DNA from: Glycocaulis albus
GTDB lineage: Bacteria > Pseudomonadota > Alphaproteobacteria > Caulobacterales > Maricaulaceae
Reading direction: 5' to 3'
DNA: 64,000 bases
NCBI RefSeq assembly: GCF_014639075.1
Contig: NZ_BMFS01000005.1
Location: forward strand, 62,001-126,000
Part shown: one piece after another, positions 55,535 to 60,638 of the stretch
How the letters are laid out: every line of letters starts with the position of its first letter
How positions within the stretch are numbered: position 1 is the first letter of the stretch
Program-made: the position numbers and the translations under genes
Notes under the pieces: generated by a model
Database searches by the model: none
Told to the model about the DNA's origin: nothing
The model's input: only the letters and a program-made list of their open reading frames with translations

Positions 55535-56773
55535 ATGACGTCTGAAGTGATGATCATGAACCGCCAGGCCGTGGCGCTCGCCGCTGACAGTGCGGTCACC
55601 TATGGCGGCGGGCCGGACCCGGTGGTCACGCTGGAGGCGGAGAAAATCCTGCCGCTCAATGGCTCGGTCGCGCTCATGGTCTATTCGCGCGGTGATGTGC
55701 TGGGCCGCTCCTGGTCGCAGATCGCCCACGCCTTCCGCCAGCAGCATGGCAGCGCAGAATTTGAAAGCGTGGCCGAGTGCGCGAAAGCCTTTTTTGCCTT
55801 CGTGGACGGCAATCGCAAGCTTTTCCCCGAGCGCGAGGAGCGCGAGGAGTTCGAGGAGCTGATGCGCGCCGCCTTCCTCACCCTGATGAATCATGCGCGC
55901 GCCATGGCGAGCTATCCGGGCGCCGGGTATGAAGACGATGCAGCCGCCTTCGAGGCTGCTCTGGAGCTCTATCGCAGCCATCTTGCCAATGATGAGAGCG
56001 GCCGTCCGCGAGCGGACCTGGAGGTGTTTGGTCATCTGACCCGGGAACGCTTCTACGAGCTGTACGGCGCCATGCTCGATCAGCTGATCGCCGATGCGCT
56101 GGGCGCGTTCGGGCAGGAAGAGGCGATGCGCGCGCGCCTGTTCGATTTTGCCTACATGATCGTCACCAAGCCGGCCTTTCTGGAACCCTATGCGGGCCTT
56201 GTGTTCGCCGGTCTGGGGACAGCCGACATTTTCCCGGTCTATGTCCATCACTACGCCTCCATCCTCGTAGACGGCGTGATGAAGCGCGCTCATGACGAGA
56301 CCACGGCTGTGGGCGTGGATGACGGGCCGAACGCCTTTGTGCGCACGTTTGCACAAGCGGACATGACCCATGCCTTCCTGCGCGGCATCCACCCGCTCAT
56401 GTTCGACATGATGATCTCGATGAACCTCATCACCAACGAGGCGGCCGCCGAAACGGCCCTGCGCGAGGCGGGACTTGATGACAGCAAGGCAGGCGAGGTG
56501 ATGGAGCGCATCGGGCAGAGCGCCCTGCCGGCACTGACCGGTCATTTCATCAAGGCCTCCCATCAGGTCAGCCAGGAGGAGTTCATCAACCCCTTCATCC
56601 AGGTGGTCTCGGCCTCCGGCAAGCGCCAGATAGCAGAAACCTCCAAGGCACTTGTGGAACTCAACATCCTAAAAAGCAGCCTTCACATGACCCAGACCGG
56701 GGTTGGCGGGGATGTGGATGTGGTGATGATCTCGCAAACCGGCGGCGTTGAATGGTATGCTCGCAAGGCCTGA
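55535..56773 (+). CDS. Uncharacterised proteasome-superfamily (Ntn) threonine hydrolase
   Basis: The 412-residue protein begins M-T-S-E-V-M-I-M-N-R-Q-A-V-A-L-A-A-D-S-A-V-T. Removing Met exposes Thr1; Asp then falls at position 17 exactly as in HslV and proteasome beta subunits, and a Lys (E-K-I-L) falls at 36, near the catalytic Lys33. The segments ALMVYSRGDVLGRSW and VFAGLGTADIFPVYV, and the end GGDVDVVMISQTGGVEWY, fit the same fold. The length is more than twice that of HslV, with a helical, acidic insert (about 85-200). It belongs to a widespread but, as far as I know, unstudied AADSAVT family. A 162-residue gene follows 25 bases later. Confidence 0.7.
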   Translation: MTSEVMIMNRQAVALAADSAVTYGGGPDPVVTLEAEKILPLNGSVALMVYSRGDVLGRSWSQIAHAFRQQHGSAEFESVAECAKAFFAFVDGNRKLFPEREEREEFEELMRAAFLTLMNHARAMASYPGAGYEDDAAAFEAALELYRSHLANDESGRPRADLEVFGHLTRERFYELYGAMLDQLIADALGAFGQEEAMRARLFDFAYMIVTKPAFLEPYAGLVFAGLGTADIFPVYVHHYASILVDGVMKRAHDETTAVGVDDGPNAFVRTFAQADMTHAFLRGIHPLMFDMMISMNLITNEAAAETALREAGLDDSKAGEVMERIGQSALPALTGHFIKASHQVSQEEFINPFIQVVSASGKRQIAETSKALVELNILKSSLHMTQTGVGGDVDVVMISQTGGVEWYARKA

Positions 56774-56798
56774 GGGCTGGCGGGCAAGGAGCAATGAT

Positions 56799-57287
56799 AT
56801 GAACGATACACCGTCCCGGCTGGATCTGGACCGCGCCCGCGCCGCACTGGCCAAGGTGCGTGATGAAGGCGCGATTGCCGTGCGCGCCCCGCGCCCGGCA
56901 GACCTGTCACGCCTGCGAGAGGAGGCCGACCGCCGCCACCGCATCGAAACGCGTGCCGGTGCCTTCCGCATGGAATTGCGCAGCCAGCTTGGCCTTGCCG
57001 ACACGCAAGGCCCTTACTCGCCTTTGCCGTTGAACACATCCGGCGTGCTGGGCCACGCCCTGTGTGACGCGGATATCTGCACACCCGAACCGCCCATGGC
57101 TGCAGCGCCCGCGCGCCCGAAGGCCGATCCGGCGCCCTCCATTGCCGGTGACCATGCCGATACGGGCTTTGCCGGTGAGGCGCCGGCCGTCGAGCCGGTG
57201 GCGCCGGAAACGGATGCAGGGTGGGCGGATGGCGCGCCCGAACCGGAAGCGCCGCCCCAGCGCAAGAAGTTCCTGGGGCTGTTCTAG
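56799..57287 (+). CDS. Hypothetical protein following the threonine hydrolase
   Basis: The ATG at 56799 follows AAGGAG and gives 162 residues. The first 75 residues are charged and helical (LDLDRARAALAKVRDEG, LSRLREEADRRHRIETRAGAF). The rest is Ala/Pro/Glu-rich and looks disordered, ending in a basic-hydrophobic tail R-K-K-F-L-G-L-F. No family is recognised. The short spacing to the upstream gene suggests co-expression, possibly as its partner or regulator. Confidence 0.6.
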   Translation: MNDTPSRLDLDRARAALAKVRDEGAIAVRAPRPADLSRLREEADRRHRIETRAGAFRMELRSQLGLADTQGPYSPLPLNTSGVLGHALCDADICTPEPPMAAAPARPKADPAPSIAGDHADTGFAGEAPAVEPVAPETDAGWADGAPEPEAPPQRKKFLGLF

Positions 57288-58943: not shown

Positions 58944-60419
58944 CTATTCGCCGGCTTCCTCGCTGGCCTTGCCGCTGGCTTCAATGGCTTTGAGCTCGGT
59001 ATTCTCCGGCGCGTCGGAGGCCTTCAGTGCGCCCTTGCGGCGTGCGGCACGTGGAACGATCAGCGTCTGCACCTGGCTTTCCATGTACTCGATGATCATG
59101 CCGGCGACGTCTTTCTCGCTTGTGCGCTCAATGCCTTCCAGACCCGGCGAGGAATTGACCTCCAGGATTTTTGGCCCGGAATTGGAGCGTAGCAGGTCCA
59201 CCCCCGCTACCGATAATCCCATCGCCTTGGCGGCCCGCACGGCTGTGGATCGCTCCTCGGGGGTGATTTTGACCGCTTCTGCCGTGCCGCCCCGGTGCAA
59301 ATTGGAGCGGAATTCGTCAGCGGAGGCCTGGCGCTTCATGGCTGCTACCACCTTGCCGCCGACGACGAAGCAGCGAATGTCGGCCCCGCCTGCCTCCTTG
59401 ACGAATTCCTGAACGATGAAATTGGCTTCCAGCCCGCGAAATGCGTCGATCACGCTTTCGGCCGCCTTCTTGGTATCGGCCAGTACCACGCCCCGGCCTT
59501 GCGTGCTTTCCAGCAGTTTCACCACCAGCGGCGCGCCGCCGACCAGCTCTATCAGGGTCTTGGTGTCCTTGGGCGAGTGGGCAAAGGCCGTCGAGGGCAT
59601 GCCGATGCCGGCACGCGCCAGCAGCTGGTGGGCGTAAAGCTTGTCGCGGCTGGCGCCGATGGCGGCGGCCGGATTGAGAATATAGGCGCCGGTCATGGCA
59701 AACTGGCGGATCACCGCCATGCCGTAATTGGTCATCGATGCGCCGATGCGCGGGATCACCGCATCAAAACGGGGCAGGCGGCGGCCATCATAGTAGATGG
59801 CAGGCGAGAGCGTATTAATGCCCATCGAGCAGCGCGCCGTATTGATCATCTCGGCAACGTGGCCACGCTCCTCGGCAGCCTTTTTCAGGCGCTTCGAGGA
59901 GTAATTGGTCGGCTCGCGGGTCAGTATGGCGATGCGAAGCGGGCGCTTGACCGGCTTCTGGCGCGGATAGTCTGAATAGACCTTGTAGCCGATCTTGCCC
60001 TGCACGTAGGAGACGGCCGGGTTGACCACGATGCCGTCGCGGATGGCCGTGCGGCCCAGCAGCATGCGGTAATTCATGCTTTCCCGGTTGGTCAGGGTGA
60101 GCTCGATAGGCCACTCGCGCGCGCCGACCTTGACCATCGCCTCGATCACCCAGCGCAGCTCGGACTCGCCATTGGACGAGGTGACCTCGCGCCGGTCGAC
60201 GGCTGGCGCCGCGCAAGTGATCTCCACATCGGGCTGGCTGGGGATGGGGTGGATGACAAAGCGCACCTGTGGCGCATTGTCCGGTCCGAACGGCTCTACC
60301 GATACCGCATGCAGCGCAGAGGTGCGCGCGCCGGTATCGACCTTGGCCTTGATCGCCGGAATGCCCAGCTCCGGGAAGGACGCCCACTCTTCCCAACCCA
60401 GTACGAACGGTTGATCCAT
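58944..60419 (-). CDS. rimK: RimB-RimK fusion: ATP-dependent zinc protease domain plus ATP-grasp glutamate ligase
   Basis: The start at 60419 gives 491 residues. The first 160 carry the retropepsin-like RimB domain ([39 protein letters not shown]; the D-T-G-A is the active-site motif). Residues from about 165 form a RimK ATP-grasp enzyme ([68 protein letters not shown]). RimK adds glutamates to ribosomal protein S6 and RimB trims or controls it, so one chain may hold both activities. A short acidic, Ala-rich tail ends the protein. Confidence 0.9.
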
Positions 60420-60638
60420 CAAATCCTCTATAGTCCTCTGGCGCCCTGATAATGCTGGCGGGCTTGCCCGCCAGCCGCGTGCCTTAGCGCGCAATTCTTC
60501 CCGCGTCCATCGGGCCTGCTTGCGGGATGGATGTCAATTTCTTCCGGCCCGGAAAGATATATCTGCGCTTGGCGAGCCTCGACGCGCGGCGCCCCGTGGC
60601 CCATGTCATCAGGCATATGGATCACAGGAGGCTTCATC

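Follow-up and report, generated by a model that had tools for sequence, protein, structure and literature searches.

The locus examined here raises the question of what kind of enzyme is encoded by a gene of the alphaproteobacterium Glycocaulis albus whose 412-residue product starts with Met-Thr, and what part is played by the small gene directly behind it. In the window, i.e. the entire stretch of 64,000 nucleotides of contig NZ_BMFS01000005.1 that was analyzed, the enzyme gene occupies positions 55535..56773 (+), with MTSEVMIMNRQAVALAADSAVT as the N-terminus of its product, and the partner gene, encoding 162 amino acids, occupies positions 56799..57287 (+). The original prediction proposed an HslV-like threonine hydrolase with an intact Thr1/Asp17/Lys triad, an acidic helical insert and a downstream partner that might be a substrate adaptor or an inhibitor.

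The catalytic triad is borne out by its conservation across homologs. Following removal of Met, the nucleophile would be Thr1 (codon 55538..55540, +), which aligns with Thr1 of the T. acidophilum proteasome beta subunit; the other two members are Asp17 (codon 55586..55588, +) and the lysine predicted near 33-36, which is Lys36 in the mature numbering (codon 55643..55645, +) and aligns with Lys33 of both the T. acidophilum beta subunit and HslV. Of the 159 complete homologs, 157 have Thr and 2 have Ser as residue 1, which in every homolog comes right behind the start codon, exactly 16 residues ahead of Asp17. The non-redundant alignment of 83 sequences has Thr1 in 81 and Ser1 in 2, with Asp17 and Lys36 each present in 83/83; the pattern used in the genome search included Asp17, so that its conservation among the genome hits is to some degree a product of the search, whereas residue 1 and Lys36 were absent from the pattern and their conservation is not. 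Asp17 is kept also in homologs that were found without any pattern. Thus, position 1 (Thr or Ser in 83/83) and Asp17 (83/83) do not drift among homologs, and the agreement with the first observation is far beyond chance. Ser at position 1, with the rest of the motif kept, occurs in Gracilimonas mengyeensis (L106:8001-9284) and in one viral contig (L167:207-1496). Within the genus, the dN/dS ratio of the enzyme is in the range of 0.04 to 0.15.

PHROG 5990, a phage protein family of unknown function (PHROG annotation), matches the window enzyme over its full length (E 3e-48) and is the only library model with a match to it; neither the enzyme nor the partner matches any Pfam or NCBIfam model at E up to 1, or any PADLOC defense model. 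A single-sequence phmmer comparison of the enzyme with the PDB yielded chance matches only. In a profile search of the PDB, the best match is the beta subunit of the T. acidophilum proteasome (E 0.002), in an alignment that sets VGGPxDVAVI of the enzyme opposite SGGMIDVAVI of the beta subunit and Thr1 opposite Thr1.

The AlphaFold model, built from the 83 sequences (pLDDT 92.8, pTM 0.89), has the element order of a proteasome beta subunit, with helices on either side of two beta-sheets, to which two helical insertions are added. All of its best fold matches in the PDB are proteasome beta subunits, followed by Anbu, with probabilities up to 1.00; the model and the fold matches agree on an Ntn-hydrolase fold, as originally claimed, and not on an unrelated one. 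Insertion 1, predicted to consist of four acidic helices, follows H1/H2 (residues 99-211, positions 55829..56167, +), and insertion 2, also helical and smaller, lies between H3 and H4 (residues about 312-361, positions 56468..56617, +). The acidic insert recognized from the sequence of the 412-residue chain is a property of the family, residues 95-213 being net negative in 79 of the 83 homologs.

Among the known relatives, HslV shares the N-terminal hairpin with the enzyme, and its Thr1, Asp17 and Lys33 can be aligned with the enzyme's triad. The enzyme differs in its two helical insertions and in having no HslU-type gene beside it, and the genome encodes a separate HslV of about 171 aa that lacks insertions and matches PF00227, which excludes HslV identity. 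The profile comparison of the enzyme with HslV is convincing over the N-terminal 45 residues only and then strays; for this reason, the fold evidence was used for family placement. Given the short, insert-free HslV chain, the separate genomic HslV and the best sequence and fold matches, all to proteasome beta subunits, the enzyme does not resemble HslV in particular. Anbu and BPH are, like this enzyme, bacterial proteasome homologs without a known unfoldase, and Anbu is among the fold matches; however, neither has been described with these two insertions or with such a partner, and BPH forms a double ring.

A closer counterpart is found among the 22 new, uncharacterized proteasome homologs reported by Fuchs, Alva and Lupas in 2021 (PMC8665760). 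In that survey, insertions both after H1/H2 and between H3/H4 are combined only in PMI-3 and PMI-4 (Proteasome homolog with Multiple Insertions 4; reference sequences HDY66466.1 and others), and phage occurrence is listed for PMI-4 and not for PMI-3 (PMC8665760, Table 1). Because the window enzyme has both insertions and its homologs occur in phages as well as in several bacterial phyla, it is most likely PMI-4, judged from architecture and distribution set beside the published description. Shared traits are the proteasome-like fold, the Thr1/Asp17/Lys33-type triad, both insertions, the lack of a propeptide and the broad bacterial range that includes phages. Going by the model, the enzyme belongs to the proteasome-like Ntn hydrolases and uses threonine as its nucleophile. 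The original description of a recurrent but unstudied family holds as to recurrence, and our literature search found no experiments on a PMI-4-type enzyme; the family is not wholly undescribed, however, as it fits PMI-4.

The active site departs from that of the proteasome outside the triad. The column of proteasome Ser169 is Val in 83/83 homologs, that of Asp166 varies among the 83, and the GSG turn ahead of H3, which holds Ser129 in the proteasome, reads FAQ in the enzyme, with Ser129 assigned by topology. The nearest candidate for the oxyanion-hole Gly47 is a column occupied by Gly in 66/83 homologs and by Ala in the other 17/83, the window enzyme among them, an uncertain equivalence given the variable loop that precedes it. 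As far as the alignment can tell, the core triad is retained and the auxiliary Ser129 and Ser169 of the proteasome are not; because of the latter, chemistry other than proteolysis is possible. A precedent is connectase, a proteasome homolog with a helical insertion that is a motif-specific ligase (PMC8665760). Connectase resembles the enzyme in family, in its helical insertion and in having no partner ATPase, and it demonstrates that this fold is able to ligate instead of degrade; it differs in being restricted to methanogens and in carrying its insertion at S3/S4, without H1/H2 (PMC8665760).

The partner gene starts 25 nt behind the stop codon of the enzyme gene, in the same direction, and is preceded by a ribosome-binding site, AAGGAG (56786..56791, +), read directly from the sequence. 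The generality of this arrangement was assessed by treating all genes alike, a small downstream gene being defined as a co-directional ORF of 40-200 aa with an RBS score >=5 and a start at -35 to +60 nt. Such ORFs follow the enzyme in 30 of 35 non-redundant chromosomal loci, compared to 24 of 177 other long genes there (p 8e-17), and in 40 of 45 non-redundant viral loci, compared to 55 of 139 other long genes there (p 2e-9). Phage records annotated by others likewise show a small gene behind the enzyme, and so do most of the very divergent homologs recovered by profile search without a pattern, in which it starts at -20 to +6 nt. Partners of alphaproteobacteria are about 130-190 aa long; those of phages and other bacteria are shorter, at about 37-76 aa. 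No partner is evident behind six homologs (L108, L113, L174, L202, L203 and L205); in the viral contig L113, its place is taken by a 347-aa protein with a hydrophobic N-terminus (about 9318 onward).

In the family of the window's host, the full-length enzyme and the partner are found in the same 11 of 61 genomes, adjacent every time, and outside those 11 the partner has just one weak match, broken by stop codons. One genome of the host's own genus (G004) lacks both genes, which suggests joint loss or joint gain. With a dN/dS ratio of 0.14-0.33 within the genus, the partner evolves faster than the enzyme and is still under purifying selection. The enzyme-partner link is strong; the functional tie to the downstream gene that had been anticipated is supported by the excess of small downstream ORFs and by the co-occurrence in 11/61 genomes, whereas the roles named for it, substrate adaptor or inhibitor, were a guess. 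These observations weigh on the simplest alternative, namely that the enzyme works by itself in general protein quality control, with unrelated small ORFs lying downstream of it by chance. Fuchs et al. saw nothing informative in the gene surroundings of their families (PMC8665760), and partners of different clades are not recognizably homologous, both as this alternative would have it; nevertheless, the strong excess of small downstream genes in chromosomes and phages, the presence of both genes in the same 11/61 genomes and the purifying selection on the window partner make it very improbable.

The partner protein itself seems to be undescribed so far. In the window, it comprises conserved N-terminal helices, an LCDADxC motif, a disordered, variable linker and a conserved basic-aromatic C-terminal tail; its structure model contains two moderately confident helices, the remainder being disordered and of low confidence. 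Maricaulaceae partners share a conserved AVRxPRPADLSRL segment, the LCDADxC motif, a linker that varies in length and sequence, and a terminal (R/K)(R/K)KFLG(I/L)F. In an alignment of 12 partner sequences, the Leu, Cys, Asp, Ala and second Cys of LCDADxC are invariant; in the window, the motif reads LCDADIC, with both conserved Cys (57060..57080, +). The window partner ends in RKKFLGLF (57261..57284, +). Parvularculaceae partners, which differ from those of Maricaulaceae over most of their length, end alike, and the tails of both families conform to basic-[FR][LF]G[IL]F. Other chromosomal clades have a different basic-hydrophobic partner end and phage partners have no common C-terminus, so the FLGxF tail, as read from these sequences, is a clade feature and not a universal one. 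We considered the tail as a general degradation tag and rejected this, FLGxF-stop being confined in the whole genome to a single occurrence, in the partner gene. Net charge was also compared: the enzyme is acidic in 81 of 83 cases, and partners are basic in 59 of 70, against 66% of background small ORFs; the window partner itself has a net charge of -5, and the charge complementarity of the pair is modest.

The partner might instead be a dedicated substrate, which the Thr1 enzyme would cleave or ligate to another protein at a short motif, much as connectase uses a recognition motif of its own; the disordered partner chain does carry conserved short motifs, namely AVRxPRPADLSRL, LCDADxC and the tail. 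The connectase precedent (PMC8665760) and the non-conservation of auxiliary proteolytic residues lend weight to this reading. It nonetheless appears rather unlikely, considering that phage partners of different clades share no motif that could serve as a fixed recognition site and that, comparing the model with the published description (PMC8665760), the insertions of the enzyme are placed elsewhere than that of connectase.

The enzyme gene is rare and patchy in the phylum, an even draw across which gave a homolog in 8 of 349 genomes. Of 61 related genomes, 21 have a homolog; homologs are also present in 13 annotated phage or satellite records, at least 274 genome contigs and at least 106 viral contigs. 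One enzyme variant is present in 9 of 5,426 complete genomes of E. coli, and some genomes have two divergent enzyme copies (G046, with L021 and L023, and G132). All 6 sampled Parvularculaceae genomes encode the enzyme, and this family appears to have fixed the module. In 27 Parvularculaceae loci (L043-L102), a gene that reads as SelO-like lies upstream of the enzyme at a median offset of about -0.8 kb, which is probably family-level synteny and not a functional link.

The window surroundings are ordinary chromosomal genes: judged by reading, genes for an S9-type peptidase and a DoxX-like protein flank the pair upstream, and a GAF/fRMsr-like gene on the opposite strand flanks it downstream. Further on, at 58944-60494 (-), a single ORF seems from its reading to combine a RimK-type ligase with an N-terminal domain resembling an ATP-dependent zinc protease. 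As the original prediction had stated, no AAA+ unfoldase gene adjoins the enzyme in the window, and none was recognized among the recurrent neighbors in the fetched loci, where gene calls were mechanical. In streptococcal satellites, the module is near or at the end opposite the integrase, the enzyme and partner being the last two genes of Javan468 and Javan103; in phage Javan85, it lies behind the lysin, at the record end. In Stenotrophomonas phage BUCT708 and an E. coli prophage, the module is on the strand opposite to its phage neighbors, beside lysis genes or the antiterminator Q. Accessory genes that are expressed in lysogens typically occupy such sites. The prophage copy of E. coli strain H3 (L209:7032-10284) is near tRNA-Gly and tRNA-Thr genes that lie within the prophage and near a DNA methyltransferase, and its partner is a 49-aa ORF that is unannotated in RefSeq. 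Because repressors, Q-like antiterminators, holins, endolysins and integrases make up most of the viral-contig neighbors, a defense-island explanation was dropped; known defense genes are not enriched beside the enzyme in viral contigs, where only scattered methyltransferases and HTH PADLOC matches were seen, and we found no literature on this enzyme family in phage defense.

Accessory positions in temperate phages and satellites would also suit a short-lived inhibitor or antitoxin, the shutdown of whose synthesis upon infection or induction would free the hydrolase to harm or arrest the cell, in an abortive, toxin-antitoxin-like module. The partner is small, fast-evolving and, in the window, predicted to be disordered, and both genes travel together when the module moves, all of which is compatible with this possibility. 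We regard it as unlikely, since some homologs have no visible partner, the enzyme gene precedes the partner gene, an order less often met in toxin-antitoxin pairs, the 6/6 incidence in sampled Parvularculaceae is unlike that of typical toxin-antitoxin loci, and the neighborhood is not one of defense genes. The inhibitor and dedicated-substrate readings are serious rivals to the gating model that we favor.

According to this gating model, to which we give a probability just short of even, the two genes form one mobile accessory module, in which the enzyme is regulated by a docking partner without an ATPase. Methionine aminopeptidase (MetAP) would remove Met and thereby expose Thr1, with no propeptide involved. 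The PMI-4 insertions have been predicted to hinder ring stacking (PMC8665760), and by the same argument those of the window enzyme would make the usual stacking of rings unlikely. The partner would dock on the enzyme via short motifs, in alphaproteobacteria most likely via the conserved basic-aromatic C-terminal tail, and once docked would gate or target the enzyme, acting as a peptidase and not as a ligase, without ATP. HslU and Bpa/PafE engage their peptidases through docking tails at the C-terminus, and the partner resembles both, as well as SspB-type tethered adaptors, in presenting a short conserved C-terminal peptide that would engage the protease (in SspB, behind a variable linker); it differs in having no ATPase domain and no detectable homology, so that the analogy would be one of layout only. 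The module is carried by temperate phages and by streptococcal satellites at their accessory-gene positions, where it may confer some benefit on the lysogen.

Fuchs et al. found no gene contexts or co-occurrence patterns suggestive of function for their families (PMC8665760); what is new relative to their work is the gene context of the enzyme, that is, a partner gene that is nearly always present and residence at accessory sites of phages and satellites. Many proteasome homologs were listed in 2021 without a functional clue, and for one of them there is now a concrete hypothesis, together with a minimal two-protein set to purify, of which the window pair and the E. coli prophage pair are tractable versions. 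It is conceivable, although we would not rate the chance highly, that an enzyme with an ATPase-free, tail-docking regulator gives temperate phages and satellites a two-gene weapon or switch to use on competing phages or the host, and that this module has been permanently taken up by one bacterial family. If the partner gates the enzyme, proteasome-type active sites would have a third mode of control in addition to AAA+ rings and Bpa/PA28-type caps.
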